From: Microlunatus kandeliicorticis
GTDB lineage: Bacteria > Actinomycetota > Actinomycetes > Propionibacteriales > Propionibacteriaceae
Direction of reading: 5' to 3'
Assembly: GCF_014137855.1 (NCBI RefSeq)
Contig: NZ_JACGWT010000005.1
Span: 124,001-188,000 of the forward strand
DNA length: 64,000 bases
Below the pieces are notes generated by a model that was not told the DNA's origin, made no database searches, and worked only from the letters and a program-made list of their open reading frames with translations. Shown here piece after piece: positions 9,121 through 62,893 of the stretch. Made by a program: the position numbers and the translations under genes. Position 1 is the first letter of the stretch. Each line of letters begins with the position of its first letter.

Positions 9121-11820
9121 TCAGCCGGCGCGCAGGTTGTCCATCACCACGTCGAGCTCGTCGGGCTTGACCAGCACGTCGCGCGGCTTCGAGCCCTCCG
9201 AGGGCCCGACCACGCCGCGGGTCTCGAGGATGTCCATCAGCCGGCCGGCCTTGGCGAAGCCGACGCGGAGCTTGCGCTGCAGCATCGAGGTCGACCCGAG
9301 CTGGAGGGTGACCACCAGCTCGACCGCCTGCAGCACCAGGTCGAGGTCGTCGCCGATGTCCTCGGCCACCTTGGTGCTCGTCTCGGCCGAAGCCGTGACG
9401 TCCTCGCGGTAGTTCGGCTTGAGCTGCTCCGAGACGTGCTTGACCACCGCCCGGATCTCGTTCTCGGTGACCCAGGCACCCTGGATCCGGGTCGGCTTGC
9501 CCGCCCCCATCGGCAGGAACAGACCGTCGCCCTGACCGACCAGCTTCTCCGCGCCGGGCTGGTCGAGGATGACCCGCGAGTCGGTCATCGAGCTGGTGGC
9601 CAGGGCCAGCCGGCTCGGGACGTTGGCCTTGATCAACCCGGTGACCACGTCGGTGCTCGGCCGCTGGGTGGCCAGCACCAGGTGGATGCCGGCCGCCCGG
9701 GCCAGCTGGGTGATCCGGACCACCGAGTCCTCGACGTCGCGCGGGGCGACCATCATCAGGTCGGCGAGCTCGTCGACGATCACCAGCAGGTACGGGTAAG
9801 GCGCGAGCACCCGCTCCGAGCCCTCGGGCACCTTGACGCTGCCCGCCCGGACCGCCTTGTTGAAGTCGTCGACGTGCCGGAAGCCGAACGCGGCCAGGTC
9901 GTCGTAGCGCATGTCCATCTCGCGGACGACCCACTGCAGCGCCTCGGCCGCCTTCTTCGGCGCCGTGATGATCGGGGTGACCAGGTGCGGGACACCCTCG
10001 TAGGCGGTCAGCTCGACCCGCTTGGGGTCGACCAGCAGCAGCCGGACCTCGTCCGGGGTGGCCCGCATCAGGATCGAGGTGATCATGGTGTTGATCACCA
10101 CCGACTTGCCCGAGCCGGTGGCGCCGGCCACCAGCAGGTGCGGCATCTTGGCCAGGTTGGCCACCACGAACCCGCCCTCGACGTCCTTGCCGAGCCCGAC
10201 GGTCATCGGGTGGTGGTCGTTGCGCGCCTTGGTGCTGCGGAGCACGTCGCCGAGGCTGACGACCTCCTTGTCGGTGTTCGGGATCTCGATGCCGATCGCC
10301 GACTTGCCGGGGATCGGCGAGAGGATCCGCACCTCGTTGCTGGCCACCGCGTAGGAGATGTTCTTGCTCAGCGCGGTGACCTTCTCGACCTTGACCGCGG
10401 GGCCGAGCTCGACCTCGTAGCGGGTCACCGTCGGGCCGCGGGTGTAGCCGGTGACCTGGGCGTCGATGTCGAACTGCTCGAGCACCCCGGTCAGTCGGCC
10501 GACCACCGAGTCCGAGGCCTCGGTCCGCGGTCGGTGGGCGGTGCCCTGCTTGAGCTGCTCGCTGTCGGGCAGCACGTACTGGACGTCGCCGGACAGCTGG
10601 AGCTGCTCGACGCGCTGCGGGACCGGGGTGTGCGGCGGCGGCTCCAGCACGGCGGACCCGGCCTCGTCACCGTCGCTCTCGCCGTGAACGACGAAGCTCG
10701 GGGCGCGTCCCGCGGTGGTGCGGGCCTTGCCGTCGGTCCCGGCGGGGGTCTTGGGGAGCCCGGCGGTGATCGTGCGCCGCCCCGGGCTCTCGGTCTCGGT
10801 GATCTCCTCGAGCTCGGCGTCGACGACGTCCGCGTCGGACGCCTCGGTCTCCGGCTCCTCGGTGCGCCGGCGGCGGCGCGACCGCCGGCCCTCGGACCCG
10901 TCGGTGATCATCGGGGTGTCGTAGGCGCGGTCGGCGTCGTAGCTGATCTCGCCGACGACCTCACCGTCGACAACCCGGCCCTGCGGCGTGAAGCGTTCGC
11001 GGAGCGCCTGCAGCCGCCCGGGGATCTCGTGCAGCGGGATGCCGAGCACCACCAGCACGCCGAAGACCAACAGCAGTGCCAGCAGCGGCGCGGCGACCCA
11101 GTTGGTCTTGAGCAGGTCGTGCAGCAGCGAGGAGGAGATGAAACCCAGGACGCCGCCGGCCTGGCGCATCTGCTCCGGATGGTCCGGGCGGGGCAGGCCG
11201 TGGGCGAGGTTGATCAGGCCGAGCAGCCCGAGCAGGACGGCGGTCCAGCCGACCGCCTGCCGGCCGCCGGGGCCGTTGCGCTCGGGGTTCCGCAGGGTGC
11301 GCCAGGCCATCCCCGCCAGCAGGATGGGCGCGGCGTAGGCGAGCGTCCCGATGACGCTGGTCAGCCCGGTGTGGATCCAGGGGCCCACAGGAGCGGGCAG
11401 GCCCCACCAGAACTCGGCGGCGACGACAATCGCGCACCCGACCAGGAACAGCCCGACGCCGTCACGCCGGAGAGCGGGGTCGAGGCCCTCGCGCTGGTCG
11501 CGGCCCGAGCCGACCATCCGGGCGCCGTGACCGACTGCGTGCGCCACCCCCAGCCAGGCGCCGCGCAGACCGCGCCCGAGCTGATTGCCGACCGAGGGAC
11601 GTGAGCCGGCACGACCGGCCGGGCGGCGGTTGCCGCTCGGTTGGTTCTGCCGGGGCCGGGGCGCCGGGCGCGACCCGCCCGACGAGCCGTTCCGCGACCG
11701 GGAGCCGGACGTGGAGGCACGCTGGGTGGGTTTCTTGCTTCCGGACGACCGCGGAGCCGAACCGCCACCACGGGTGGCGGAGCTACGGGACCGCGGTGGG
11801 GAAGACGCGCGGGTCGCCAT
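9121..11820 (-). CDS. ftsK: DNA translocase FtsK
   Basis: This 899-residue protein couples chromosome segregation to division at the septum. A basic Ser/Arg/Pro-rich N-terminus (about 1-100) is followed by four membrane helices (about 110-270) and an acidic linker. The alpha-beta motor domain has Walker A GATGSGKS near residue 565 and a Walker B region LLLVDPKRVEL. The C-terminal gamma winged helix (about 830-899; QLGSTSMLQRKLRVGFAKAGRLMD) reads DNA polarity sequences. ATG 11820 was chosen because TAACCT ends 7 nt upstream, a leaderless arrangement; an in-frame start 42 nt upstream would lie ahead of that promoter. Translation-facilitated polarity sites were not sought. Confidence 0.96.
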   Translation of the reverse strand: MATRASSPPRSRSSATRGGGSAPRSSGSKKPTQRASTSGSRSRNGSSGGSRPAPRPRQNQPSGNRRPAGRAGSRPSVGNQLGRGLRGAWLGVAHAVGHGARMVGSGRDQREGLDPALRRDGVGLFLVGCAIVVAAEFWWGLPAPVGPWIHTGLTSVIGTLAYAAPILLAGMAWRTLRNPERNGPGGRQAVGWTAVLLGLLGLINLAHGLPRPDHPEQMRQAGGVLGFISSSLLHDLLKTNWVAAPLLALLLVFGVLVVLGIPLHEIPGRLQALRERFTPQGRVVDGEVVGEISYDADRAYDTPMITDGSEGRRSRRRRRTEEPETEASDADVVDAELEEITETESPGRRTITAGLPKTPAGTDGKARTTAGRAPSFVVHGESDGDEAGSAVLEPPPHTPVPQRVEQLQLSGDVQYVLPDSEQLKQGTAHRPRTEASDSVVGRLTGVLEQFDIDAQVTGYTRGPTVTRYEVELGPAVKVEKVTALSKNISYAVASNEVRILSPIPGKSAIGIEIPNTDKEVVSLGDVLRSTKARNDHHPMTVGLGKDVEGGFVVANLAKMPHLLVAGATGSGKSVVINTMITSILMRATPDEVRLLLVDPKRVELTAYEGVPHLVTPIITAPKKAAEALQWVVREMDMRYDDLAAFGFRHVDDFNKAVRAGSVKVPEGSERVLAPYPYLLVIVDELADLMMVAPRDVEDSVVRITQLARAAGIHLVLATQRPSTDVVTGLIKANVPSRLALATSSMTDSRVILDQPGAEKLVGQGDGLFLPMGAGKPTRIQGAWVTENEIRAVVKHVSEQLKPNYREDVTASAETSTKVAEDIGDDLDLVLQAVELVVTLQLGSTSMLQRKLRVGFAKAGRLMDILETRGVVGPSEGSKPRDVLVKPDELDVVMDNLRAG

Positions 11821-23230: not shown

Positions 23231-23953
23231 ATGGACAACTCTAGCGGTGTGGGCGTCCTCGACAAAGCCGCCCTCGTGCTCGGTGCGCTCGAGACCGGAC
23301 CGACGACTCTGGCCGGTCTGGTGTCGGCCACCGGGCTCGCCCGACCGACCGCGCACCGGCTCGCGGTTGCCCTCGAGCACCACCGGCTGGTCAGCCGCGA
23401 CCTGCAGGGACGGTTCATCCTCGGGCCCCGGCTCGGCGAGCTGGCCTCGGCCGCCGGTGAGGACCGGCTGCTGGCCACAGCCGGCCCGGTGCTGGCACGG
23501 CTCCGCGACATCACCGGGGAGTCGGCACAGATGTTCCGCCGGCAGGGCGACTACCGGATCTGCGTGGCCACCGCCGAACGCACCTCGGGGCTGCGCGACT
23601 CGGTCCCGGTCGGCACCCAGCTGACCATGACCGCCGGCTCGGCCGCCCAGGTGCTGCTCGCCTGGGAGGAGCCCGACCGGATGCAGCGCGGGCTGCGCGG
23701 TTCGCGGTTCTCCGCGGTCGCCCTGGCCGCGGTCCGGCGCCGCGGCTGGGCCCACTCGGTCGGCGAGCGCGAGCCGGGCGTCGCGTCGGTGTCGGCGCCG
23801 GTCCGCTCCCCCTCGGGCAAGGTGATCGCCGCGGTCAGCGTCTCCGGACCGATCGAGCGGCTGTCCCGCCAGCCCGGCCGGCTGCACGCTCCGGCCGTGA
23901 TCGCCGCCGCCGAGAGGCTCACCGAGGTGCTGCGCCGCACCGGCGGCGAGTGA
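23231..23953 (+). CDS. IclR-family regulator of leucine synthesis (NdgR/LtbR-like)
   Basis: This 240-residue protein has an N-terminal winged helix (about residues 10-65; [20 protein letters not shown]) and a C-terminal IclR ligand domain. The opening [18 protein letters not shown] is the hallmark of the actinobacterial NdgR/LtbR group, which controls leuCD and other amino-acid genes. It is divergent from leuCD, the conserved arrangement. The ATG at 23231 fits the homologues' start. Control of leuCD and itself is inferred from family and position. Confidence 0.92.
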
Positions 23954-49048: not shown

Positions 49049-51832
49049 TCAGGCGTCGCCGCCCGCGTTGCCGGAGGTGCCGGCGTTGACGTCGAGCAGG
49101 TCGTACTTGCGGACCGCCTCGGCAGCCGCCTCGGCCGGGAGCTTGCCCTCCTGCGCCAGCGCCTGGACCGCCTTGGCGGCGATCGAGTGGCTGTCGATGG
49201 TGAAGTAGCGCCGGGCCGCCGGGCGGGTGTCGGAGAAGCCGTGGTCGTCGGCCCCGAGCACGTGGTACGGGTTCGGGAACAGACCGCGGATCTGGTCCGG
49301 CACCCCGGTGGCGTAGTCGGAGCTGGCGATCACCGGTCCCTCGGCGCCGGCCAGCTTCTCGGCCAGGTAGCCGGTCCGCCGCTCCTCGTCCGGGTGCAGC
49401 CAGTTGTGCCGCTCGGCCGCCAGGGCGTCGCGCCGGAGCTCGACCCAGGAGGTCACCGACCAGACGTCGGCGCTGACCCCCCAGTCGTCGCGGAGCAGCT
49501 TCTGGGCCTCGAGCGCCCACGGGACCCCGACACCGGAGGCCATCAGCTGCACCTTGGGGCCGTCGCCGTCGTCGCCGGCGACCTTGTGGATGCCGCGGAC
49601 GATGCCCTCGGTGTCGACGCCCTCGGGCTCGGCCGGCTGGACCATCGGCTCGTTGTAGACCGTCAGGTAGTACATGACGTCGCGCTGGTCGTCGGGGGTG
49701 TCGGGGCCGTACATCTGCTCGAGCCCGGCCCGGACGATGTGCGCGATCTCGTACCCGTAGGCCGGGTCGTAGATCTTCATCGCCGGGTTCGAGGAGGCGA
49801 GCAGCGGGCTGTGGCCGTCGGCGTGCTGCAGGCCCTCGCCGGTCAGCGTGGTGCGGCCGGCGGTGGCCCCGATCACGAACCCGCGGGCCATCTGGTCCAT
49901 CGCCGCCCAGAGCCCGTCACCGGTGCGCTGGAAGCCGAACATCGAGTAGAAGACGTAGACCGGCAGCATCGGCTCGCCGTGCGTGGCGTAGCTGGTCGCC
50001 GCCGCGGTGAACGCCGCCACCGAGCCGGCCTCGTTGATCCCGGCGTGCAGGATCTGGCCCTGCTCGGACTCCTTGTAGCTGAGCAGCAGCGCCCGGTCGA
50101 CCGAGGTGTAGTGCTGGCCGCGCGGGTTGTAGATCTTGGCGCTCGGGAAGAAGCTGTCCATCCCGAAGGTCCGGGCCTCGTCGGGGATGATCGGCACCAC
50201 CTGGGCGCCGTAGTCCTTGTCCCGCATCAGGTCGCGGAGCAGCCGGACGAAGGCCATCGTGGTGGCCGCCTCCTGCTTGCCCGAGCCCTTGCGGATCCCC
50301 TCGAAGACCTTGTCGTCGGCGCGCAGCGTGGTCGAGGTGGCGTGCCGGCGCTCGGGGACGAACCCGCCGAGCTTGCGGCGCCGCTCGACCGCGTACTGCA
50401 CCACGTCGGAGTCCGCCCCCGGGTGGTAGTACGGGACGCCGTAGGTGTCCTCGTCGATCTGGGCGTCGGTGACCGGGATGTTCATCAGGTCCCGGAACGC
50501 CTTGAGGTCGTCCTTGGTGAGCTTCTTCATCTGGTGGGTCGCGTTGCGCGCCTCGAAGTGCGCCCCGAGCCCGTAGCCCTTGACCGTCTTGGCCAGGATC
50601 ACCGTCGGCCGGCCGGCCGCCATCCCCTGCCGGCTGGTGGCGGCGTGGTAGGCGGCGTAGACCTTGCGGTAGTCGTGGCCGCCGCGCTTGAGGCCCCAGA
50701 TCTGCTCGTCGGTGTAGCTGTCGACCAGCGCCTTGGTCTCCGGGGTCTTGCCGAAGAAGTTCTCCCGGACGTAGGCCCCGGACTCGCCCTTGTAGGTCTG
50801 GAAGTCGCCGTCGGGGGTCTCGTTCATGATCCGCACCAGCTGACCCGAGCTGTCCTGGGCGAACAGGTCGTCCCACTCGCGGCCCCAGAGCACCTTGATG
50901 ACGTTCCAGCCGGCGCCGCGGAAGAAGCCCTCGAGCTCCTGGACGATCTTGCCGTTGCCGCGGACCGGACCGTCGAGCCGCTGCAGGTTGCAGTTGATCA
51001 CGAAGGTCAGGTTGTCCAGACCGTCGTTGGCCGCCAGCTGGAGCAGGCCGCGGGACTCGGGCTCGTCCATCTCGCCGTCACCGAGGAAGGCCCAGACGTG
51101 CTGGTCGGAGGTGTCCTTGATGCCGCGGTTGTGCAGGTAGCGGTTGAACTGCGCCTGGTAGATGGCGTTCATCGGACCGATGCCCATCGACACCGTCGGG
51201 AACTGCCAGAAGTCCGGCATCAGCCGCGGGTGCGGGTAGGAGCTCAGGCCGTGCGGAGCCTTCGACTTCTCCTGCCGGAAGCCGTCGAGGTCGGCCTCGC
51301 TCATCCGGCCCTCGAGGAAGGCGCGGGCGTACATGCCGGGCGAGGCGTGGCCCTGGAAGAAGACCTGGTCGCCGCCGCCCGGGTGGTCCGGGCCGCGGAA
51401 GAAGTGGTTGAGCCCGACCTCGTAGAGGGTGGCCGCGCCGGCGTAGGTGGAGATGTGCCCGCCGACCGCGATGTCCGGGCGCTGGGCGCGCTGGACCAGC
51501 ACGGCCGCGTTCCAGCGCAGCAGCTTGCGGAACTGGCGCTCGAGCGCCTCGTCACCGGCGAAGTCCGGCTCGTCCTCGGGCGGGATCGTGTTGACGTAGT
51601 CGGTGGTCACCGGGGCGACCGAGGGCAGCCCGGACGCGGTGGCGCGGGCGGCGACCGCCCGGATGATCTCCTCGGCCCGCTGCGCGCCGCGGCTGGCGAT
51701 CAGCGCATCGACCGACTCCAGCCACTCGGACAGCTCCTCCGGGTCCTGCCCCGCCCGGTCGGGCTCGGGCTGCTGCCCCGGGAGAACCGGCTTGGCTGAG
51801 CCGTTGGTGCGTGCGTCGGATACGGCGGTCAC
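49049..51832 (-). CDS. aceE: Pyruvate dehydrogenase E1 component (homodimeric)
   Basis: This 927-residue ThDP enzyme decarboxylates pyruvate and acylates the lipoyl domain of E2. The first ThDP region holds [20 protein letters not shown] near residue 122 and [19 protein letters not shown] near 240. The transketolase-like middle domain (about 500-720) and a C-terminal domain complete the actinobacterial AceE type, which works with a shared SucA/E2 system. GTG 51832 fits the usual N-terminus. No E2 or E3 gene is adjacent. It is last on the minus strand before the small membrane genes. Confidence 0.97.
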
Positions 51833-51879: not shown

Positions 51880-53451
51880 TCAGTGCGGCTGGTCTTTCGC
51901 GGTGTCGCAGACCCGACAGTCCACCACGGAACCGGCGGCGTCCACCACAGGAACATTATTCCCGTCCGCATCGACGATGCGTCCGCCGGTGATCCGGTCC
52001 CCCTCGCGGAGCTGCCCGAGGGTGGTCAGGTCCTCGTAGCGGACGCTGCGGACGGGGGCCTTGGCGAACACCGACGGGTCGGACCGCGGCGTCCCGCCGA
52101 GGTGGTGGAAGACCAGGTTGAGCACGATGGCCATCAGGGCCGCCGAGCTGATCCCGGAGTGGAAGATGACCTGGAACCAGCCCGGGAAGCGGTCCCAGAA
52201 GTCGGGGCTGGCCACCGGGATCAGACCGACCCCGAGCGAGATGGCCACGATCACCAGGTTGAGGTTGCCCTCGTAGTCGACCTTGGCCAGCGTCCGGATG
52301 CCCGAGGCGGTGACGGTGCCGAAGAGCACCAGCCCGGCTCCGCCGAGCACCGGGTACGGGATCGCGGCGACCACCCGGCCGAGCACCGGCAGCAACCCCA
52401 GGACGAGCAGGATCAGCCCGCCCGCGGTGACCACGTACCGGCTCTTGACCCGGGTGATGGCGACCAGCCCGACGTTCTGGGCGAAGGCGGTCTGGTGGAA
52501 GCCGTTGAACAGCGGGGCGATCGCCGAGGACAGCATGTCGGCGCGCAGCCCGTTGCCGATCCGGCGCTTGTCGACGCGGGTGCCGACGATCTCGCCGACG
52601 GCCAGGATGTCGGCGGTGGTCTCGGTCATCGCCACCAGCACCACGATCAGCAGCGAGACCGTCGCGGCCAGCTCGAACCGCGGCATCCCGAAGGCCAGCG
52701 GGGTCGGGAAGGCCACCACCGGCCCGGTGCCGACGCCGGAGAAGTCGGCCCGGCCGAGCACCGCGGCGATCACCGTGCCCAGCACGATCGCAAGCAGGAT
52801 CGAGAGTCGCGAGATCGCCGCGACCCCCACCTTGCTGAGCACGATGACGATCAGCAGGGTCAGCCCGGCCAGCCCGATGTTGCCGGTCGAGCCGTACCCG
52901 GGCGCCTTGCTGTCGTTGCCGAGCGCCCAGTTGGCGGCCACCGGGAACAGGCTCAGCCCGATCGAGGTGATCACCACCCCGGCGACCACCGGCGGGAAGA
53001 ACTTGATCACCCGGGCGAAGAACGGGGTGAGCAGCAGCCCGATCACCGAGGAGAGCAGCACCGCACCGAACACCACCGGGAGACCGCTGCCGTCGCGGGC
53101 ACCGCCGGCCGCGATGGTGGCCATGGTGGCCACCCCGGCGAACGAGGTGCCCTGGACCAGCGGCAGCTGCGAACCGAAGAACGGCAGCCCGAACGACTGG
53201 AGCACGGTGGCCAGCCCGCCGATGAACAGGCAGCAGGCGACCAGCAGGGCGATCCGGTCGCTGGGCAGCCCGGCCGCGCCGCCGACGATCAGCGGCGGGG
53301 CGATGATCCCCCCGTACATGGTCAGGACGTGCTGGGCGCCGTAGGCGAGGCTGCGGCCGAGCCCGAGGTACTCGTCCTCGGGTCGGCCCGAGCGGGCCGG
53401 GCGGCCGAACCGGCGCGGGGCGGTCGGGACTGCGGGCGGCGCAGAGGTCAT
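51880..53451 (-). CDS. Nucleobase:cation symporter-2 family permease (urate/xanthine type)
   Basis: This 523-residue permease has about 14 helices. The NAT/NCS2 signature appears as [14 protein letters not shown] near residue 325, and the substrate helix motif is [15 protein letters not shown] near 277. It starts 109 bp after the uricase stop, so it most likely imports urate or xanthine. The C-terminal 65 or so residues form an unusual hydrophilic tail ([20 protein letters not shown]) ending in [13 protein letters not shown], with a CxxC pair. Its substrate is inferred from context. Confidence 0.9.
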
Positions 53452-53560: not shown

Positions 53561-54514
53561 TCAGCAGAAGCCGGCGATGCCGACCCAGGCGGCCTCGGCG
53601 CTCGGTGCGCCCTTGCGGGCGATGGTGGCCTCGATCAGCCCGTAGGGCCGGTCGGCGGCGTGGTAGACGACGTTGGGGTTGTCCAGACCGCAGAAGCTGA
53701 GGTCGGAGAGGAAGTGGTGGTTGTTGGGGCAGGAGAACTTGATCTCGTCGATGGTCGGGTTGGCGGTGATGACGGACTCGGCCATCTGGAACAGGGTGTG
53801 CTGCAGCGCCTTGGAGTAGCCGGCCGCGAAGGTGGCGAGGATCGTCTCGCGGACCGCGGCGTAGGTGGCGTCGTAGTCGACCTCGGTGGTGTTGTAGCGC
53901 CACCGGGTGGCGAGATCGGTGGCCAGGATCCGGTCGGTCGTCTCGGCCAGCGTGGTGTAGCGGTCGCGGGGGTAGCCGACGAACCCGGACTCGGTCGACT
54001 TGAGCACGGTGAGCCCGTGGAAGCCGGCGATGACGGTCTCGGTGTCGCCGTCCTTGACCACCACCGCGGTGCGGGTCTCCGGACCCGCCTTGTAGAACGC
54101 GTGGTCGTGGTCGTTGATCCGGGCCCACAGGGTCTGCTCGGCCGCCCAGCGGCCGCCGGTGACCCAGCCGAAGCTCTCGGTGAAGTGCCGGCCGAGCCGG
54201 AGCAGGAACTGCTCGGGGGTGTCGATCCCCTCACGGGCGAAGGCGAAGACGGTGTTCTTCTGGGTGTCGGTGGCGACCACGTGGGCGTTGTCGCCCTCGG
54301 TGTGCGCCGCCTCGAAGTCGCCGCGCAGCTGCGAGGTGACCACCAGGTCCTCGATCCGGTGCCGGGCGCCGGCGCCGCGGTCGGCGTCCCGGGTGATCCG
54401 GACGACGTGGTTGCCCGCCTTGCCGTACTGGTTGGCGGTCAGCTCCACCTCGGCCGCCGCGGCGGGCCGGCCCGCGGTGCCGGAATCCGTGCGGTCGGTC
54501 ACGGTGTCGGTCAT
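53561..54514 (-). CDS. Urate oxidase (uricase)
   Basis: This 317-residue enzyme oxidises urate to 5-hydroxyisourate. The catalytic Lys is in NQYGKAGNHVV, the Thr in VVATDTQKNTVF near residue 82 and the His in CPNNHHFLSDLSFCG near 264, with a repeated T-fold. ATG 54514 gives the normal N-terminus. The frame stays open upstream through the tandem repeat and the next genes only because the repeat has period nine. It lies downstream of the OHCU decarboxylase and HIU hydrolase genes, giving the three consecutive urate-to-allantoin enzymes. Confidence 0.96.
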   Translation of the reverse strand: MTDTVTDRTDSGTAGRPAAAAEVELTANQYGKAGNHVVRITRDADRGAGARHRIEDLVVTSQLRGDFEAAHTEGDNAHVVATDTQKNTVFAFAREGIDTPEQFLLRLGRHFTESFGWVTGGRWAAEQTLWARINDHDHAFYKAGPETRTAVVVKDGDTETVIAGFHGLTVLKSTESGFVGYPRDRYTTLAETTDRILATDLATRWRYNTTEVDYDATYAAVRETILATFAAGYSKALQHTLFQMAESVITANPTIDEIKFSCPNNHHFLSDLSFCGLDNPNVVYHAADRPYGLIEATIARKGAPSAEAAWVGIAGFC

Positions 54515-54597: not shown

Positions 54598-54933
54598 TCA
54601 GCTGCCGCGGTAGGTCGAGTAGGCGAACGGGCTGAGCAGCAGCGGGACGTGGTAGTGCGGGTCGGCTCCGACGGCGACCAGCACCCGGACCTCGGGGTAG
54701 AAGGTCGGGGTGCCGCGGTCGGCGAACCAGGCTCCGGTGCCGAAGGTGATCGCGTAGGCGCCCGGCTCGAGCGTCTCGGGGCCGAGCTCGCGGACCCGGC
54801 CGTCGGCGTCGGTGAGCGCGGTGGCGAGCGGCGCGTCGGACCCGGCGGCGTCGGCGCGGCGGAGCTCGACGGTCATCCCGGCGGCCGGCGCGCCGCCGAC
54901 CGCGTCGAGGACGTGCGCGGTGATCAGGCTCAT
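54598..54933 (-). CDS. 5-hydroxyisourate hydrolase (transthyretin-like)
   Basis: This 111-residue transthyretin-like enzyme hydrolyses 5-hydroxyisourate. The family hallmarks are the N-terminal LITAHVLDAVGGAPAAG (catalytic His), a central Arg-containing ELRRADA and the C-terminal YRGS. Hydrophobic strands match the beta-sandwich. Its ATG overlaps the OHCU decarboxylase stop by 4 bp. Confidence 0.96.
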   Translation of the reverse strand: MSLITAHVLDAVGGAPAAGMTVELRRADAAGSDAPLATALTDADGRVRELGPETLEPGAYAITFGTGAWFADRGTPTFYPEVRVLVAVGADPHYHVPLLLSPFAYSTYRGS

Positions 54934-55487
54934 CGGGGGTCCGTTCGCTGGTCCGTTCGCTGGTCCGGGGCGGGCGGTCCGTCGTCGGGTCCGCCGCCGA
55001 CGGCACCCTGCAGCCGCACCAGGGCGATCTGGCGGAGCTGCTCAGCGGTCTCGGCGGCCTCGGTCTCGTCGTCGTTGCCGAGCCGGCGGTCGAGCTCGGC
55101 GAGGATCTCCTCGCTGCTCCGGCCCGCGGCCCGGATCAGGAACACCCGGCCGAAGCGCCGCTCGTAGGCGGCGTTGCCCTCCCGCAATCGTCGCGGCACG
55201 TCGCCGCCGGTGTCCAGACCCGCCTGCTCCCCACGCGACAGGCCGGCCTCGGCGCTCTCCCCCGCGGCCCGCTCGCCGATCCGCGGGTGGTGGGCCAGCG
55301 CGCTCTCGACCTCGGCCGCGCTCAACGGGTCGGCGGCCGCGGCGGCCGTGGCGGTCAGGGCGTCGGTGTCGGCGTACGGGCGACCGGCGACGACCTCGGC
55401 GATCCAGCGGTCGACGTCGAGGCAGGGCCGGAGCACGGAGGCGGCCCGGTCGGGGGCCGCCGCGTTGAAGTCTGCGAGAGTGACCAT
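54930..55487 (-). CDS. 2-oxo-4-hydroxy-4-carboxy-5-ureidoimidazoline (OHCU) decarboxylase
   Basis: This 185-residue helical enzyme gives (S)-allantoin from OHCU. Motifs are ADFNAAAPDRAASVLRPCLD near residue 5, the catalytic HHPRIGER near 65 and FGRVFLIRAAGRSSEEIL near 110-130. The C-terminus ends in DQRTDQRTDPR, encoded by a 12-bp duplication. It is the first gene after a promoter carrying two dyads, and it overlaps the HIU hydrolase gene by 4 bp. Confidence 0.94.
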   Translation of the reverse strand: MVTLADFNAAAPDRAASVLRPCLDVDRWIAEVVAGRPYADTDALTATAAAAADPLSAAEVESALAHHPRIGERAAGESAEAGLSRGEQAGLDTGGDVPRRLREGNAAYERRFGRVFLIRAAGRSSEEILAELDRRLGNDDETEAAETAEQLRQIALVRLQGAVGGGPDDGPPAPDQRTDQRTDPR

Positions 55488-55505: not shown

Positions 55506-55569
55506 TTCCGTATCGCGGAAGTGATCTTCCGCATGACGACATCTTGGAGTGGTTCCAGTCTTCTGTCAA
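55506..55569 (-). promoter_or_regulatory. Urate-operon promoter with two TTCCG-N5 operator dyads
   Basis: On the minus strand TTGACA (55564-55569), a 17-bp spacer and CAAGAT (55541-55546) form a near-consensus promoter. A perfect TTCCG-TATCG-CGGAA dyad (55506-55520) lies just past the start point, and a second TTCCG half with a weaker partner (55527-55541) starts 21 bp away and touches the -10 box. The same arrangement occurs before malic enzyme at 62852. Such dyads fit IclR-type regulators, an inference. Confidence 0.75.
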
Positions 55570-55611
55570 GGACCGGACGCCGGGCGGACGGTCGCGAGCG
55601 AGGGAGCAGCG

Positions 55612-56382
55612 ATGGCGGAGCGACCACAGTCCCAGGTCGTGGTGGTCACCGGGGGCGGCAGCGGGATCGGACGCGCCGCGGCGCGGGCCCTGCTGGCCCG
55701 AGGGCACCGGGTGGCGGTCACCGGACGACGCCCGGAGCCGCTGACCGAGACCCTCGAGGGCGACGGGGTCGCGGCCGGTGGCGCCGGACTCACGGTGCCG
55801 ATGGACGTCAGCGACCCCGCCTCGGTGGAGGCCGGCTTCGCCGCCGTCGAGGCCCGGTTCGGCCGGGTGGACGCGCTGTTCAACAACGCCGGGATCGGCG
55901 CCTCCGGCGCGGTCGACGAGGTCGACCACGACGCGTGGCAGCAGGTGGTGGCGATCAACCTGACCGGCTCCATGCTCTGCGCGGCGGCCGCGGTCCGGAT
56001 CATGAAGCGGCAGGACCCGCAGGGCGGCCGGATCATCAACAACGGGTCGATCTCGGCGCACGCGCCGCGACCGGCCAGCGTGGCCTACACGGCGACCAAG
56101 CACGCGATCACCGGGCTGACCAAGTCGATCGAGCTCGACGGCCGGCCGTTCTCGGTGCGCGGCGGTCAGATCGACATCGGCAACGCGGCCACCCAGATGA
56201 TGAGCGGCATCGGCGACGACGTCGGGGCGCTGCAGCCCAACGGGTCCCGGATGGTCGAGCCGACCTTCGACGTCGCGCAGGTGGCCGAGGCGGTCTGCTG
56301 GATGGTCGAGCTGCCGCTGTCCACCAGCGTCAACTCGCTCGTCATCACGGCAGCCGGGATGCCCTTCGTCGGTCGCGGCTGA
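55612..56382 (+). CDS. SDR-family NAD(P)-dependent oxidoreductase
   Basis: This 256-residue short-chain dehydrogenase has TGGGSGIGRAAARA near residue 14, NNAGIG near 91, the Ser in NNGSISA and YTATK near 161-165. GAGGGA precedes ATG 55612. It is divergent from the urate operon and shares its regulatory spacer, so it may be co-regulated, but its substrate is unknown. The C-terminus lacks the classical final DGG segment, having VITAAGMPF instead. Confidence 0.85.
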   Translation: MAERPQSQVVVVTGGGSGIGRAAARALLARGHRVAVTGRRPEPLTETLEGDGVAAGGAGLTVPMDVSDPASVEAGFAAVEARFGRVDALFNNAGIGASGAVDEVDHDAWQQVVAINLTGSMLCAAAAVRIMKRQDPQGGRIINNGSISAHAPRPASVAYTATKHAITGLTKSIELDGRPFSVRGGQIDIGNAATQMMSGIGDDVGALQPNGSRMVEPTFDVAQVAEAVCWMVELPLSTSVNSLVITAAGMPFVGRG

Positions 56383-57331
56383 GCCGGAGCAGGGTGGCCA
56401 GGTCGAGCCGGATCTTGGCCAGGGTGCGGACCAGCGGCTCCTCGCGCCACTCGTCGGGCAGGTCGTCGAACCGCACCGCGCGGTGCCGGGCGACCAGCAG
56501 CCCGAGCGCGGTGCCGAGCACCCAGAAGGCCAGCCCGGTGACGGCCATGGTGATCGCCCGGGCCCCGTGGGCGTGGATGTGCAGCACGGTGTTGTCGTCG
56601 ATCAGCCGCGGCAGGTCGCTCACCGGACTGACCAGGGCGTAGAGCGCGTAGGGCAGCCCGAGCGCGACGCCCCAGCGCAGCGTCCGCCAGCGGTCGCGCC
56701 GGTTGATCCAGCGTTGCCGCAACGGCAGCGCCGCCACCGGCATGGCCACCGAGACGAGGTTGCCGATCCCCAGCCAGGTGAGGATCGGGAACAGCACCCC
56801 CAGCCCGGTGAACAGCACCGCGACCGCGTGGTGGCTGTCGACCAGCGCGATCCCACCGGTGAGCAGCAGCGTGGGCAGCCCGACGATGATCAGCAGCGTC
56901 AGGTTCTTGACCAGCAGGATGCGGCGCAGCGGGATGCCGTGACGGAGCCGGGCCGTCACCCGGACCGCGTCCGCGCCGAGCACGTTGGTGGTGGTGACGT
57001 CGGCCAGCACCCAGACCGCGAAGTAGCTGCCGACGATGACCGCCCAGGCCCGCCGGTCGCCGTGGTGCAGCGGGTCGACGAACAGCCACAGCGCGCCGAG
57101 CACGAGGTTGATCACCACCCCGGCCAGCCAGTTCCACGGGGGCCGGAAGGCCCAGCGGAGGTCGGCCCACACCTGCCGGTGCAGCCGGCGCTCGGCCGGG
57201 TCGCCGACCAGCGGTGCGCGGGCCGGGAGCTGCGGGTCGACCGGCAGCCCCGGGTCGCCCGGACCGAGCTCCACCGGCGTCCCGAGAACGGGGGTCAGAC
57301 CCGTCCCCAGCTCACCGGCCGCGCTCGTCAC
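56345..57331 (-). CDS. Multi-pass membrane protein, unknown function
   Basis: This 328-residue protein has about six hydrophobic helices between residues 60 and 280, with Arg-rich loops (RQRWINRRDRWR) and a basic C-terminal tail. The spacing of helices resembles the membrane subunit of an ABC-type exporter, but no ATPase gene is adjacent and I do not assign it. Its 3' end overlaps the convergent SDR gene by 38 bp. GTG 57331 is the likely start, 64 nt downstream of allE on the same strand. Confidence 0.6.
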   Translation of the reverse strand: MTSAAGELGTGLTPVLGTPVELGPGDPGLPVDPQLPARAPLVGDPAERRLHRQVWADLRWAFRPPWNWLAGVVINLVLGALWLFVDPLHHGDRRAWAVIVGSYFAVWVLADVTTTNVLGADAVRVTARLRHGIPLRRILLVKNLTLLIIVGLPTLLLTGGIALVDSHHAVAVLFTGLGVLFPILTWLGIGNLVSVAMPVAALPLRQRWINRRDRWRTLRWGVALGLPYALYALVSPVSDLPRLIDDNTVLHIHAHGARAITMAVTGLAFWVLGTALGLLVARHRAVRFDDLPDEWREEPLVRTLAKIRLDLATLLRLSRDRRRASRLP

Positions 57332-57395
57332 GACGCCAGTCTGCCACCGCGCCGGAGCGGTTCCCGGGCTCGTCCGGGAGGGTCGTCCGGAGGGC

Positions 57396-58304
57396 TCAGC
57401 CGAACGGTCGGCCGAGCGGCATGTGCCGGTTGACGTCCTTGTAGAGCAGATAGCGGAACCGGCCCGGGCCAGCGGCGTAGCAGGCCTGCGGGCAGAACGC
57501 CCGCAGCCACAGGAAGTCGCCCTCCTGCACCTCGACCCAGTCGTCGTTGAGCCGGTAGACCGCCCGGCCCTCGAGGATGTAGAGCCCGTGCTCCATCACG
57601 TGGGTCTCGGCGAACGGGATCAGCCCACCGGGCTCGAAGCTGACGATGTTGACGTGCATGTCGTGCCGCAGGTCGTCGGGGTCGACGAACCGGGTGGTCG
57701 ACCAGCGCTCGCCCCACTCGGGCATCCGGCCCGGGGTGATCGCCGACTCCTCGGTGATCACCGGATCGGGCGCGTCCAGACCGTCGACGCGCTGATAGTT
57801 CTTCCGGATCCAGTGGAACCGGGCGGTCGCGCCGCCGCGATTGTGCAGCGTCCAGTCCGCCGCCGGCGGCAGATAGGCGTAGCCGCCGGTGGGCAGCGGG
57901 TGGCTCGTCCCGTCCAGCGTCAGCTCGAGCGTGCCGTCGACCACGAACAGCACCGTCTCGGCGTCGGGGTCGGTCTCCGGCCGGTCGCTCCCGCCGCCGG
58001 CGGCCACCTCGACCAGGTACTGCGAGAACGTCTCGGCGAACCCGGTCTGCGGCCGGGCCAGCACCCAGAGCCGGGTGCCGGTCCAGAACGGCAGCAAGCT
58101 GGTGACGATGTCGCGCAGGCACCCGCGCGGGATCACCGCGTAGGAGGTGGTGACCACCGCCCGGTCGGTGACCAGGTCGTTCCAGCCCGGCATGCCACCG
58201 GTCGGGGTGTAGTAGGCCCCGTGCTCGGTGGTCCGGCCGGGCGCCGCGCCGTGCGGGTAGGCGTGCGGGTGGGCGTGCGGGCGGTCCGGACGGTCGGTGC
58301 TCAC
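57396..58304 (-). CDS. allE: (S)-ureidoglycine aminohydrolase
   Basis: This 302-residue bicupin converts (S)-ureidoglycine to ureidoglycolate in allantoin catabolism. The cupin cores lie near VLFVVDGTLELTLDG (about residue 120) and ETHVMEHGLYILEGRAVYRLNDDWVEV (about 235-262), where the Mn ligands (His, Glu, Gln-type) lie. A His/Pro-rich N-terminus (about 10-22) could bind metal. AGGAGG precedes GTG 58304, which overlaps the upstream gene's stop by 4 bp. Confidence 0.9.
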   Translation of the reverse strand: MSTDRPDRPHAHPHAYPHGAAPGRTTEHGAYYTPTGGMPGWNDLVTDRAVVTTSYAVIPRGCLRDIVTSLLPFWTGTRLWVLARPQTGFAETFSQYLVEVAAGGGSDRPETDPDAETVLFVVDGTLELTLDGTSHPLPTGGYAYLPPAADWTLHNRGGATARFHWIRKNYQRVDGLDAPDPVITEESAITPGRMPEWGERWSTTRFVDPDDLRHDMHVNIVSFEPGGLIPFAETHVMEHGLYILEGRAVYRLNDDWVEVQEGDFLWLRAFCPQACYAAGPGRFRYLLYKDVNRHMPLGRPFG

Positions 58305-59683
58305 CGGTGGTCCTCCTGGTCGGTCGGGTCGGCGCCGGCGGCGCCCGGGGTCGCCCGGCCCGTCGGGGGAAGGTCGACGTTCTCGGTGTCCGAGCGGGGC
58401 CGGGCCAGCGCACCGAGCGCGTCCGGGCCCAGCCCGGTCGCGGCGGTCAGCTGCTCGGCGTCGGTGGCTCCGCACTGGTACCCGCGGTACAGGTAGCGGG
58501 CCAGCGCCCGGGCGGTGGCCGGCTCGTCGAGCACGCCGCCGCCGGTCCGCCCGACGTAGGCGGCCAGTCGGGCCGCGGCGGCGTCGAAGTCCTCGGTCCA
58601 GAACGCGATATTGGCCGCGTACCGGGTCGGCAGCTGGGCCGGGTGCAGGTCCCAGCCCTGGTAGAAGCCGCGCTCGAGCGAGCGCCGGACCAGTCGGTGG
58701 TGCAGACGCCAGGCCGCCAGCACCTGGTCGCGCGAACCGACCGGGAGCACGTTGGTCGAGCCGTCGGAGAGCTGGACGCCGGTGCCCGCCGCGACCAGCT
58801 GCATGACCTGCTTGGCGTGGTCGGCGGCCGGGTGCTCCATCGACTGGTGGGCGGCGGCGATCTGCAGCGAGGCGCTGTAGTCGTAGGTGCCGTAGTGCAG
58901 GCCGGTGACCCGGCCGCCGCCGGCGTGCAGGGCCGGTGCGAGCGGGCAGCTGCCGTCGGCGGCCAGGATGAGCTGCGGGGTCTCGACCTGGATCTCGAAG
59001 CCGAGCCGGCCCGGAGGCAGCCCGGCCGTCTGCTCGAACGCCGCGCAGACGTCGACCATCACGGCCACCTGGTCGACGGTGCTGACCTTGGGCAGCGTGA
59101 GCCGGAGCCCGTCGGGCAGCGGACCGTGCTCGAGCAGGGTGCCGAGGAAGAGGTCGAGCGTCCGGATCCCCCGGTGCCGGGTCGGGGCCTCGAAGCACTT
59201 GAACCGGATCCCGACGAACGGCGGCGCGGTGCCGTCGTTCACGGTCCGGGCCAGGGCGGTGGCCGCGGCGACCACCTCGGCGTCCTCGTCCGGGCGCGGG
59301 CCGTAACCGTCCTCGAAGTCGATCCGCAGGTCCTCGATCGGTTCGCGGGCCAGCTTGGCGTCGATCCGGGACGCCACCGCGGCGGAGCGCTCCCCCAGCC
59401 CGAGCGCCGCGGTCATCGCCTCGGCACCGCCGAACCGGGCGACGGCGTCGCGGGCCTGCTCCCCCCACGCCGCGACGGTGCCGGCGTCGAACCGGTGGCC
59501 CGGGACGTAGACCGTGTGCACCGGCTGCCGGCTGCCGTCCTCGCCCGGGTAGGCGGTGGCGAGCAGCGCGTCGGTGCCGGCCAGCCGGGCGTCGGCCGCG
59601 GCGAGCACGGCCGGGTCGAGTACGGCCGCGTCGGGCTGCGGGCGTCCCGGACGCGGTGCGGTCGGCGTGGGGGTCGGGGTCAT
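58301..59683 (-). CDS. Aldolase/citrate-lyase-like protein (DUF6986 type)
   Basis: This 460-residue protein has the HpcH/HpaI/CitE-type TIM barrel: IDFEDGYGPRPDED near residue 120 and KVSTVDQVAVMVD near 200. The metal-binding GFEIQVETPQLI is near 228, and LHYGTYDYSASLQIAAAHQ is near 258. It lies between allE and malate synthase with a 4-bp overlap on one side and 10 bp on the other. A role in glyoxylate or malyl metabolism is likely from the context; the reaction is unknown. Confidence 0.78.
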   Translation of the reverse strand: MTPTPTPTAPRPGRPQPDAAVLDPAVLAAADARLAGTDALLATAYPGEDGSRQPVHTVYVPGHRFDAGTVAAWGEQARDAVARFGGAEAMTAALGLGERSAAVASRIDAKLAREPIEDLRIDFEDGYGPRPDEDAEVVAAATALARTVNDGTAPPFVGIRFKCFEAPTRHRGIRTLDLFLGTLLEHGPLPDGLRLTLPKVSTVDQVAVMVDVCAAFEQTAGLPPGRLGFEIQVETPQLILAADGSCPLAPALHAGGGRVTGLHYGTYDYSASLQIAAAHQSMEHPAADHAKQVMQLVAAGTGVQLSDGSTNVLPVGSRDQVLAAWRLHHRLVRRSLERGFYQGWDLHPAQLPTRYAANIAFWTEDFDAAAARLAAYVGRTGGGVLDEPATARALARYLYRGYQCGATDAEQLTAATGLGPDALGALARPRSDTENVDLPPTGRATPGAAGADPTDQEDHR

Positions 59684-59693
59684 CCGGTGGCGC

Positions 59694-61292
59694 TCACTTG
59701 ATCAGCTCGTAGGCGGGCAGGGTGAGGAAGTCGACGAAGTCCTCGCCGAGACACAGGTCGGCCAGCAGCTTCTTCGCCGGGACGTAGTACTTCTCCCAGG
59801 TGTCGGCCGGGACGCTCTGCTGGAGTTTGCCGGCCTCCTCGTCGAGCAGCCGCTGGACGAGCTTGCGGCTGACCGTCTCGCCGGTGTCGGCGAGGATCAC
59901 CTTGTTGTGGATCTCCTGCCACACCTGCGACCGGCTGATCTCGGCGGTGGCGGCGTCCTCCATCAGGTTGTGGATGGCCACCGCCCCGTTCCCGGACAGC
60001 CAGGTGGCGATGTAGACCAGCGCGACCTCGAGGTTGTTGCGCAGCCCCTGCTCGGTGTTGGCGCCCTGGGCCGAGGAGATGTCGAGCAGCTCGAAGGGGT
60101 CGACCCGGACGTCCTCGCGGAGCCGGTCGAGCTGGTTGGGCTTGTCGCCGAGCGTCTCGGTGAACACCTCGGCGCAGAGCTCGACCATGTCGGGGTGGGC
60201 GACCCAAGAGCCGTCGAAGCCGTCTGCGGCCTCGCGGGACTTGTCGGAGCGCACCTTCTCGAAGGCGGCGGCGTTGACCGCCTCGTCCTTGCGGCTGGGG
60301 ATGAACGCGGCCATCCCGCCCATCGCGAACGCACCGCGCTTGTGGCAGGTGCGGACCAACAGCTCGGTGTAGGCCCGCATGAACGGCGCGGTCATGGTGA
60401 TGTCGGCGCGGTCGACCAGCACGAACCGGCTGCCCGCGTCGCGGAAGTACTTGATGATGCTGAACAGGTAGTCCCAGCGACCGGCGTTCAGCCCCGAGGC
60501 GTGCTCGCGGAGCTCGTAGAGGATCTCCTCCATCTCGAAGGCGGCCGGGATGGTCTCGATCAGCACCGTGGCCCGGACCGTGCCGTGCTCGATCCCCAGC
60601 TCGGCCTCGGCGAAGGTGAAGACGTCGTTCCACAGCCGCGCCTCGAGGTGGCTCTCCATCTTGGGCAGGTAGTAGTACGGCCCGTGCCCGTTCTCGATCA
60701 GCGTGCGGGCCAGGTGGAAGAAGTGCAGCCCGAAGTCGGTCAGCGCCCCCACGGTCGGCTTGCCGTCGACGCGGACGTGGTCCTCGGGCAGGTGCCAGCC
60801 GCGCGGCCGCATCACCACCACGGCGAGCGGGGCGTCGGTGCGCAGCGCGTAGGACTTGCCCTGCGCGTTGGTGAAGGCGAGCGTGCCGCGGGCGGCGTCG
60901 CGCAGGTTGAGGATCGAGTCGATCACGTTCGACCAGCGCGGGTGCCCGGCGTCCTCCAGGTCGGCCAGCCAGACCTTGGCGCCCGAGTTCAGCGCGTTGA
61001 TCGCCATGTTGGCCGGTGAGGCGGGGCCGGTCATCTCGACCCGGCGGTCCTGCAGCGCGGGCGGGGCGGGCGCGACCTGCCAGTCGCCGTTGCGCACGTC
61101 GACGGTGTGCGGCAGCAGCTCGAGCCGGCCCGACCGGGACGCCTCCAGCCGGTTGCCCCTGCGGGCGGCGACCAGGTCGTCGCGGCGCGCCCCGAAGGTG
61201 CGGTGCAGCTTCTCCAGGAAGGCCAGCGCCTCGTCGGTGAGGATCTCCTCGGCACGGTCGATCGGGTGCGGGTCGGTGACCTCGATGCTCAT
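59694..61292 (-). CDS. aceB: Malate synthase
   Basis: This 532-residue enzyme condenses glyoxylate and acetyl-CoA to malate. The malate synthase A signature REHASGLNAGRWDYLF is near residues 263-278; VLIETIPAAFEMEEIL near 245 holds a catalytic-site Glu, and residue-rich RGWHLPEDHV is N-terminal. It is placed after allE and the CitE-like gene rather than with isocitrate lyase, so it probably serves glyoxylate from purines. GAGG precedes the ATG. Confidence 0.96.
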   Translation of the reverse strand: MSIEVTDPHPIDRAEEILTDEALAFLEKLHRTFGARRDDLVAARRGNRLEASRSGRLELLPHTVDVRNGDWQVAPAPPALQDRRVEMTGPASPANMAINALNSGAKVWLADLEDAGHPRWSNVIDSILNLRDAARGTLAFTNAQGKSYALRTDAPLAVVVMRPRGWHLPEDHVRVDGKPTVGALTDFGLHFFHLARTLIENGHGPYYYLPKMESHLEARLWNDVFTFAEAELGIEHGTVRATVLIETIPAAFEMEEILYELREHASGLNAGRWDYLFSIIKYFRDAGSRFVLVDRADITMTAPFMRAYTELLVRTCHKRGAFAMGGMAAFIPSRKDEAVNAAAFEKVRSDKSREAADGFDGSWVAHPDMVELCAEVFTETLGDKPNQLDRLREDVRVDPFELLDISSAQGANTEQGLRNNLEVALVYIATWLSGNGAVAIHNLMEDAATAEISRSQVWQEIHNKVILADTGETVSRKLVQRLLDEEAGKLQQSVPADTWEKYYVPAKKLLADLCLGEDFVDFLTLPAYELIK

Positions 61293-61379
61293 TCTCGCCT
61301 CATTCGTCGGTCGCGGGTCGGGTGCGGGGACGCCGGCGGTCGGCCGACGCCCGCGTCAGGGGCCCAGCCAACCACTGAC

Positions 61380-62837
61380 TCACACCCCGACGGGGACCGG
61401 CTGCTCGACCCGGTGCGGTGTCGCGTCCGGCTCGCCCCCGGTCGGCACCGGCCGTCCCTCCCCCGCCACCCGCGCCACCGCGGCGGCGACCGCCGGGGCG
61501 ACCCGGGCGTCGAACACGCTGGGGACGATGTAGCTGGCGTTGAGCTCGTCGGGCCCGACACAGTCGGCGATCGCCTCGGCGGCGGCGACCAGCATCGGTG
61601 TGGTGATGTCGCGCGCGGCGGCGTCGAGCAGGCCGCGGAACAGTCCGGGGAAGGCCAGCACGTTGTTGATCTGGTTGGGGAAGTCGCTGCGCCCGGTGGC
61701 CACCACCGCGGCGTGCTCGGCCGCCTCGGCCGGCGCGATCTCGGGGTCCGGGTTGGCCAGCGCCAGCACGATCGCTCCGTCGGCCATGGTCGCCACGTCG
61801 GCTCCGGTGAGCAGGTCGGGACCGGAGACGCCGATGAACACGTCCGCACCGGCGAGCGCCTGCACCAGCGTGCCGTCGAACCCGTCGGGGTTGGTGTGGT
61901 CGGCGATCCAGCGGCGGTGGGCGTCGGTGTAGGAGCCACCGCGGTGGACGGCTCCGCTGCGGGCGCAGGCGACGATCCGGGTCGCCCCCTGGGCGCGGAG
62001 CAGCTGGACGATCGCGTGCCCGGCCGCGCCGACCCCGGAGACGACGATCCGGGCCCGGTCGATGGTCTTGCCGACCAGCCGGAGCGCGTTGACCAGGGCG
62101 GCCAGTACGACGATCGCGGTCCCGTGCTGGTCGTCATGGAAGACCGGGATGTCGAGCTCGGCGCGCAGCCGGGCCTCGATCTCGAAGCACCGCGGGGCAG
62201 CGATGTCCTCGAGATTGACGCCGCCGTAGACCGGAGCGAGGGCGTTGACGATCGCGATGATCTGTTCGGTGTCGGTGGTGTCCAGGCAGACCGGCCACGC
62301 GTCGACGTCGGCGAACTGCTTGAACAGGGCCGCCTTGCCCTCCATCACCGGGAGTGCGGCGGCCGGACCGATGTCACCCAGTCCGAGCACCGCGGTGCCG
62401 TCGGTGACCACCGCGACGGTGTTGCGCTTGATGGTCAGCCGGCGCGCGTCCTCCGGGTGCGCGGCGATGGCCCGGCAGACCCGGGCGACGCCCGGGGTGT
62501 AGGCGCGGGACAGGTCGTCACGGTTGCGGAGCCGCACCTTGGGCTCGACGGCCAGCTTGCCGCCCAGGTGCAGCAGGAACGTCCGGTCGCTGACCTTGCG
62601 GACCGCGACCCCGGGCAGCGTCTCGAGCGCCGCCGCGACCGTGGTGGCGTGGTCCTCGCCGCTGGTGTCGCAGGTCAGGTCGACGACCAGGGCGTCGGGC
62701 CGGGACTCGACGATGTCGAGCGCGGTCACCGAGCCGCCGGCGGCGGCGACGCACCGGGCCAGCTCGGAGGTGACGGTGGGGCTGGCGGGGGCGTCGATCC
62801 GCAGCGTGATCGCGTAGCCCGGGCTCGGAGTCGGCAT
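61380..62837 (-). CDS. NAD(P)-dependent malic enzyme with N-terminal ACT domain
   Basis: This 485-residue enzyme decarboxylates malate to pyruvate. An N-terminal ACT domain (about residues 8-75; [19 protein letters not shown]) precedes the malic-enzyme core. That core has [10 protein letters not shown] near 112, the metal-binding [15 protein letters not shown] near 205, [11 protein letters not shown] and the nucleotide loop [11 protein letters not shown] near 266. The ACT domain suggests amino-acid or metabolite control. Its promoter carries the same operator pair as the urate operon. It starts the run malic enzyme, malate synthase, CitE-like, allE. Confidence 0.92.
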
Positions 62838-62851
62838 GAGGTCCTCTCGTT

Positions 62852-62893
62852 TTCCGTATCGCGGACGTTAGCTTCTGCGAAGCGGAATGACAA
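62852..62893 (-). promoter_or_regulatory. Malic-enzyme promoter with two TTCYG-N5-CGGAM dyads
   Basis: On the minus strand TTGTCA (62888-62893), a 17-bp spacer and TAACGT (62865-62870) form a promoter. One dyad, TTCTG-N5-CGGAA (62873-62887), fills the spacer; the second, TTCCG-TATCG-CGGAC (62852-62866), overlaps the -10/start region. The dyads start 21 bp apart, exactly as upstream of the urate operon. Confidence 0.75.

Follow-up and report, generated by a model that had tools for sequence, protein, structure and literature searches.

The stretch of DNA analyzed here (the window) comprises 64,000 nucleotides of the Microlunatus kandeliicorticis genome, positions 124001 to 188000 of contig C5 (NZ_JACGWT010000005.1) in a 4.30-Mb assembly (G000), and carries two operons, both on the minus strand, each preceded by a pair of similar palindromes that we interpret below as operators of a common regulator. 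The first operon begins with uraD (54930 to 55487), which encodes OHCU decarboxylase (above the cut-off for TIGR03180; PF09349), and continues with uraH for 5-hydroxyisourate hydrolase (54598 to 54933; above the cut-off for TIGR02962), a gene for uricase (urate hydroxylase; 53561 to 54514; above the cut-off for TIGR03383), and a gene for an NCS2 permease of the xanthine/urate type (51880 to 53451; above the cut-off for TIGR03173); aceE, encoding pyruvate dehydrogenase E1 (49049 to 51832; above the cut-off for TIGR00759), is a possible read-through member. The second operon comprises genes for a MaeB-type malic enzyme (61380 to 62837; PF00390/PF03949), malate synthase A (aceB; 59694 to 61292; above the cut-off for TIGR01344), a DUF6986 protein with a malyl-CoA lyase/malate synthase-like fold (58301 to 59683; PF22484, 556 bits, with fold matches), and (S)-ureidoglycine aminohydrolase (allE; 57396 to 58298; above the cut-off for NF008376 and also for NF040771, the bifunctional allantoicase/ureidoglycine aminohydrolase). 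The initial annotation had described this second operon as a malate-to-pyruvate step; the malic enzyme is present, but because the operon also holds malate synthase, the DUF6986 gene, and ureidoglycine aminohydrolase, which complete the urate pathway, it is the lower end of that pathway and not an unrelated malate step. The genome has a second malic enzyme gene (C6:3024-4418, 61% identical; two matches in total at E<=1e-60), at which the operator model built from relatives and described below finds no match, and the maeB gene of the window is probably a paralog dedicated to the pathway.

The palindrome pairs were scored as TTCCG-N5-CGGAA-N6-TTCCG-N5-CGGAA, a 36-bp pattern with 20 specified bases and with centers 21 bp apart. 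Upstream from uraD, the pair (55506 to 55541) consists of TTCCGTATCGCGGAA at 55506 to 55520 and the imperfect dyad TTCCGCATGACGACA from 55527 to 55541 (left half 5/5, right half 3/5); upstream from maeB (62852 to 62887), TTCCGTATCGCGGAC at 62852 to 62866 is followed by TTCTGCGAAGCGGAA at 62873 to 62887, and the step between dyads is 21 bp in both. The initial annotation had reported these letters, coordinates, and steps, all of which proved correct on rereading, together with an identical 14-base stretch, TTCCGTATCGCGGA, which occurs just twice in the entire assembly, once in each operator. Searching the assembly with TTCCGTATCGCGGAM returned two exact matches and one place with a single mismatch, TTCCGTATCGCCGAA at C1:371028; no second dyad accompanies it by eye, and the gene that follows reads as one for a DoxX-like membrane protein. 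Both operators score 18/20. The next best pair in the window reaches 14, and among 300 shuffles preserving local composition the highest score was 17, seen once. Single dyads with one mismatch are background-like in the window (4 found, 1.8 expected), and the signal is therefore carried by the pairing. This background rate would favor chance resemblance of the two promoters; the pair score unreached by shuffling, the restriction of the pairs within the genome, and their conservation refute that explanation and leave it next to no probability.

With its flanks, the urate-side dyad agrees by eye at 14 of 16 positions with WTTYCRYW3RYGRAAW, the consensus of IclR group 1 (WTT-11-AAW), and is thus of that group's type. 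According to the main text of PMC8222616, tandem sites with centers 18 to 22 nt apart occur in 94 of 181 orthologous groups of the IclR family and are tied to tetramer binding. The 21-bp spacing, found at all three sites in this genome and in relatives, is of this tandem type, and the initial reading of the TTCCG palindromes as IclR-type sites is consistent with both the consensus and the spacing (PMC8222616).

Both pairs lie on putative promoters with 17-bp spacers. The uraD promoter would have a -35 box TTGACA (55564 to 55569, minus strand; 6/6) and a -10 box CAAGAT (55541 to 55546, minus strand; 3/6 relative to TATAAT), and the maeB promoter a -35 box TTGTCA (62888 to 62893, minus strand; 5/6) and a -10 box TAACGT (62865 to 62870, minus strand; 3/6). 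The -10 boxes fall under the threshold of the promoter scan, which at that threshold reported no promoter upstream from either gene; of the "good promoter" originally described, the spacers and -35 boxes hold, but the -10 boxes are weak and the promoters are moderate. Measured from the putative -10 boxes, the maeB operator would span about -29 to +7, and the uraD operator about -7 to +29. The initial annotation had allowed for either a repressor or an activator; the position of the sites over the core promoters makes repression the better guess. An activator, or a regulator repressing its own gene and activating elsewhere, is improbable rather than far-fetched: several IclR-family proteins are activators, and the distance from pair to promoter differs between the two operons. 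Against it, the overlap of both pairs with the core promoter favors occlusion over activation, and E. coli AllR and IclR are described in PMC11323563 as repressing matching genes.

For the genome-wide search we built a sequence-only model, R1, from 23 pairs in the flanks of regulator and malic enzyme genes of relatives, with none from G000. These were selected from 33 relatives' sites scoring at least 14 (one of those kept, in L051, scores 14), and each was entered in both orientations; the ten others were dropped by hand, in most cases for being coding, overlapping, GC-rich, or weak, although one of them, a 16/20 site in L042 (position 2280), was dropped without good reason. Over the 4.30-Mb genome at E<=10, R1 matched only three places: the maeB operator (E = 0.0018), the urate operator (G000:C5:179506-179538; E = 0.095), and an intergenic region between a regulator gene on contig C4 and hyi (E = 0.22). 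The genome search proposed in the initial annotation thus gave hits on urate, allantoin, and glyoxylate operons, including the one that holds allantoinase, and one of them lies beside an IclR-family gene; random scatter was not seen. The xanthine dehydrogenase hit also expected there was not among the genome hits, the presence of that gene in the genome being outside the search. In relatives, R1 at E<=0.1 matched 8 of 12 genomes, and where the genes were inspected, the matches lay at allR or maeB, before uraH in G004 (C352:4642), and before hyi-glxR-gcl in G048 and G051. Looser patterns were rejected as diagnostics. Exact TTCCG-N5-CGGAA occurs at four places in the genome, of which one is the urate site, two (L001 and L002) have no recognized pathway gene, and one (L003) belongs to another IclR-family gene; allowing three mismatches gave 81 forward and 85 reverse places, which is too loose.

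Three genes in this genome match IclR_C: one beside leuCD in the window, one beside an ATP-binding cassette (ABC) permease gene, and one on contig C4, outside the window. The initial annotation had held that the regulator is not adjacent and must be encoded elsewhere; the C4 gene is likely to be that regulator, although the window does hold an IclR-family gene, about 32 kb away. The C4 gene (G000:C4:414494-415264, equivalent to L037:6495-7265) encodes an IclR-family protein (PF09339 [HTH_IclR], 61.9 bits, and PF01614 [IclR_C], 116.4 bits, both above cut-off) and is divergent from hyi-glxR-gcl-glycerate kinase-allantoinase (allB), where glxR was named by sequence reading and hyi (L037:7430-8239) is hydroxypyruvate isomerase-like, with 227.8 bits for TIGR03234, under the cut-off of 353. 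Between the two divergent genes lies the third pair, TTCCGCATTGCAAGA-N6-TTTCACGATGCGGAA, again with a 21-bp step. The regulator gene is thus linked to allantoin and glyoxylate genes together with its putative operator, as in AllR-type systems. In a hand alignment to the IclR chain, with the glyoxylate/pyruvate pocket as given in Table 1 of PMC11323563, four of the five glyoxylate-oxygen-binding positions are kept (Gly160, Asp212, Ser239, and Ser241), position 161 is Val, and the pyruvate-methyl positions 143, 146, 154, and 220 are Ala, Met, Ala, and Val, which makes glyoxylate a plausible effector.

We consider it probable, at about 0.84, that both pairs in the window are operators of the AllR-type IclR-family regulator encoded on C4, which would repress three loci and be released by an effector. 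Two dimers, with two helical turns between them, would bind one side of the DNA and cover the core promoters of the urate and maeB-aceB-DUF6986-allE operons as well as the allR/hyi intergenic region; glyoxylate or an intermediate of the allantoin pathway would release the repressor, and the steps from urate to glyoxylate would be induced jointly with glyoxylate disposal through malate synthase plus malic enzyme and through the gcl-hyi-glxR route. What the sequences show is the sites themselves, the conservation of their phasing, their confinement to these operons within the genome, and the proximity of the regulator gene to such operons; binding by this protein, its action as a repressor, its effector, and its tetrameric state are what we infer. 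The earlier proposal of one shared IclR-family regulator for both promoters is supported, as a prediction, by the genome-wide, linkage, and conservation results.

The other two IclR-family proteins would be competing candidates for binding the pairs. The gene in the window (23234 to 23953, plus strand), NdgR/LtbR-like by its position beside leuCD (leuD was named by family search), would imply amino acid control; it lies in the same window and belongs to the same family, and the dyad agrees by eye at 14 of 15 positions with the NdgR/LtbR consensus KTYCRSMWYSYGRRM published in PMC8222616. An NdgR/LtbR operator would, however, be expected at leuCD/ndgR and wherever NdgR occurs, and the distribution is otherwise: such a gene is present in 56 of the 57 genomes searched, G000 included, compared with AllR matches in 31 of 57; G010 and G019 have it and show no pair at E<=0.1; the leuC intergenic region beside it reaches only 12/20 for a pair and 7/10 for a single dyad; and R1 finds no leu-region site in G000. 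We regard this attribution as quite unlikely. Still less probable is binding by the third protein (C5:59447), whose gene adjoins one for a sugar ABC permease, although it is of the same family and has a similar single dyad, TTCCGATAATCGGAA, in its own promoter: that site is a lone dyad, scoring 14/20 as a pair, the neighbor is a transporter gene by reading, and the relatives-only model has no match there. The dyad itself is perfect, lies between the ABC permease and IclR-family genes (L003 1501-1515; G000:C5:59001-59015), and probably serves as an operator for the IclR-family protein encoded next to it.

The pairing and its spacing are conserved in many of the soil bacteria related to this one. 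In the 400 bp upstream from the regulator genes of 25 relatives (taken from the best AllR matches of 30 genomes, minus the M. kandeliicorticis locus and four matches of at most 41% identity), a pair scoring at least 15/20 was found at the 21-bp spacing in 12, compared with 0 to 5 at each of the other 20 spacings from 15 to 35 bp and 0.05 in shuffles. A larger set comprised 80 named allR loci (L150-L229), the best 80 of at least 380 relatives; Arthrobacter and its allies make up most of this set, whose members are not independent of one another. Within the stretch examined, 71 have maeB, 69 aceB, 73 DUF6986, 73 allE, 28 hyi, and 27 glxR. Where the urate gene lies on the minus strand and 200 bp or more of sequence was available (53 loci), a strict pair of at least 15 precedes the urate operon at the 21-bp spacing in 36 (32 distinct sequences) and at any other spacing in at most 9. 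In the allR/maeB intergenic regions, the strict motif was found in 8 of 80 at a score of at least 15 and in 27 of 80 at a score of at least 14, no better than at a 28-bp spacing (27); the relaxed motif TTYCR-N5-YGRAA, picked after the strict result had been seen and controlled by a spacing scan, scored at least 17 in 75 of 80 at 21 bp, in 20 at 28 bp, and in 0 to 4 at each of 16 further spacings. In the window, a gene for a short-chain dehydrogenase/reductase family protein (55612 to 56382, plus strand) is oriented divergently to the urate operon, and relatives of it occur in 10 of the 80 allR loci.

The AllR-like gene directly adjoins maeB in G003, G004, G008, G009 (a partial match, 52%), and G047, with intervening pairs of 15, 16, 16, 16, and 14 of 20, respectively; hyi-glxR-gcl is immediately preceded by a pair in G004, G048, and G051, as is uraH in G004. 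Conversely, G019 and G010, the only AllR-less genomes searched with R1, have maeB genes 78% and 70% identical to that of the window and yet no AllR match (E<=1e-30) and no model match (E<=0.1); a 15/20 pair in G010 sits 3' of maeB, not upstream. The set of genes that carry the pair varies among relatives. Retention of the genes without the dyads, named in the initial annotation as a result that would speak against a shared regulator, was largely not seen, the pair being conserved in many relatives, but the pair is absent at uraD or maeB in some of them. An Arthrobacter dokdonellae plasmid carries a regulator copy 68% identical to the C4 protein (L231), and the 20.7 kb around it have an annotated malate synthase G, no pair of at least 15, and none of the reference pathway genes.

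Several observations weigh against repression of the three loci by the C4 protein. The uraD operator is placed two turns further downstream than the maeB operator. Two of the three R1 genome matches are weak by E-value alone, and the motif used to collect the training sites came from the window sites, so that only place and spacing are independent. The C4 regulator falls under the NCBIfam cut-offs for AllR (E. coli equivalog NF007548, 95.7 bits; cut-off, 406), IclR (E. coli, NF008601, 153.1 bits; cut-off, 380), and BhcR (NF045644, 183.8 bits; cut-off, 350); it may work in an AllR-like manner, but it does not belong to the E. coli AllR equivalog. Among relatives, 17 of the 53 named urate operons have no strict pair, and a pair of at least 15 was found at only 1 of 22 relatives' uraD loci (L081, in G051), G004 having one before uraH instead. 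In G015, a pair accompanies the AllR-like gene, but no pair was found in the 330 bp upstream from maeB (68%; 12/20), and G017 and G002 have AllR-like proteins and no model match at E<=0.1; a 17/20 match near the AllR-like gene of G002 is GC-rich and was set aside. The allR/maeB intergenic regions of L150-L229 also show the secondary peak at 28 bp, which perhaps reflects a third box.

The gene content of the operator-linked operons bears on the fate of purine-derived glyoxylate. PMC12694930 raises the objection that malate synthase is unable to function in allantoin catabolism, because no acetyl-CoA is coproduced. We speculate that the genes linked by the operator could form a self-priming cycle that burns glyoxylate, in which AceB would condense glyoxylate with acetyl-CoA to malate, the dedicated MaeB would convert malate to pyruvate, and AceE would convert pyruvate to acetyl-CoA, with DUF6986 releasing the glyoxylate from ureidoglycolate; the combined proposal is tentative, and we think it rather more likely to be wrong than right. 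If true, the cycle would meet the objection on acetyl-CoA supply (PMC12694930), as maeB and the adjacent aceE could regenerate the acetyl-CoA used by malate synthase. The aceE gene starts 47 bp downstream from the permease gene on the same strand, and the gap contains no same-strand promoter- or terminator-like site. It lies within the stretch examined in 15 of the 80 named loci and next to the cluster in G004 and G019. An operator belonging to aceE itself was rejected: 10 of the 15 loci had enough flanking sequence, and a pair of at least 15 was found in just one (L165). The aceE gene in the window has no pair of its own and would therefore be controlled by read-through or not at all.

DUF6986 is a candidate for the enzyme that cleaves ureidoglycolate and releases glyoxylate, as its gene context and predicted fold suggest that it may do. 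Full-length DUF6986 proteins occur in 15 of the 57 genomes, G000 included; DUF6986 is also encoded in 73 of the 80 named allR loci. The ureidoglycolate lyase AllA (PF04115) was found in 2 of 57 genomes, neither of which has full-length DUF6986, and allantoicase in 4 of 57, three of which have DUF6986 within about 7 kb; the fourth genome is 83% complete. Neither AllA nor allantoicase was found in G000, other ureidoglycolate enzymes being outside the search. An AlphaFold model of the protein, built with 21 sequences (mean predicted local distance difference test score, 84), matches malate synthase, a putative lyase (3qqw), and malyl-CoA lyase with E-values of 1e-8 to 1e-6 and template-modeling scores, normalized by the query, of about 0.5. 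In the literature searched, no paper appeared under the name DUF6986.

Taken together, one predicted repressor would control most of the pathway from urate to central metabolism in Microlunatus, Arthrobacter, and their kin, through an operator precise enough for sequence searches. Such a regulon suggests a reason for the second malic enzyme in this genome, offers a route for malate synthase to run on purine-derived glyoxylate, and proposes a testable function for DUF6986, a conserved family.

The AllR protein of Streptomyces coelicolor is reportedly an IclR-family repressor of allantoin-pathway genes, as said to be described by Navone et al. in 2015. The regulator predicted here resembles it in family, predicted mode of action, and targets, and we infer that the two are orthologous. 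The study of Navone et al. 2015 is cited in PMC12772271, and it is possible that parts of this regulon were described there earlier for Streptomyces. A replicon of Streptomyces sp. BHT-5-2 (L230) encodes a 61%-identical protein in the vicinity of genes for allantoinase and malate synthase. Pairs with the 21-bp step lie there at 11710 and 14830; one, of 16/20, is upstream from malate synthase, and one, of 15/20, adjoins the regulator gene. A search by tblastn at E<=1e-10 found no maeB, DUF6986, or urate gene in this 24.7-kb stretch. The literature searched, which did not include Navone et al. 2015, held no published link among malic enzyme, urate genes, and an IclR-family regulator, and the regulon is not described in the parts of the main text of PMC8222616 that we examined.

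The E. coli AllR regulon (allR-gcl-hyi-glxR-allW-allB-ybbY-glxK) likewise has an IclR-family gene beside gcl, hyi, glxR, allantoinase, and glycerate kinase, and glyoxylate weakens the binding of its regulator, according to PMC11323563. It differs in that the C4 regulator is only 30% identical to K-12 AllR over 226 residues, in its motif, which is AT-rich in Table 1 of PMC8222616, unlike the pairs described here, and in its locus, where the 14 kb examined lack uricase, malate synthase, and malic enzyme. E. coli IclR, which acts on aceBAK, offers a second parallel as an IclR-family regulator of a malate synthase, with glyoxylate and pyruvate as effectors (PMC11323563); here, malate synthase is instead tied to purine catabolism, and the profile score is 153 against a cut-off of 380. 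The operators have the same architecture as the tandem WTT-11-AAW sites of Suvorova and Gelfand 2021, as far as the main text of PMC8222616 describes them, with no architectural difference. We thus view the system as an AllR-type regulon with the ordinary tandem architecture of the IclR family and an unusual content, whose modest newness lies in a dedicated malic enzyme wired into it.

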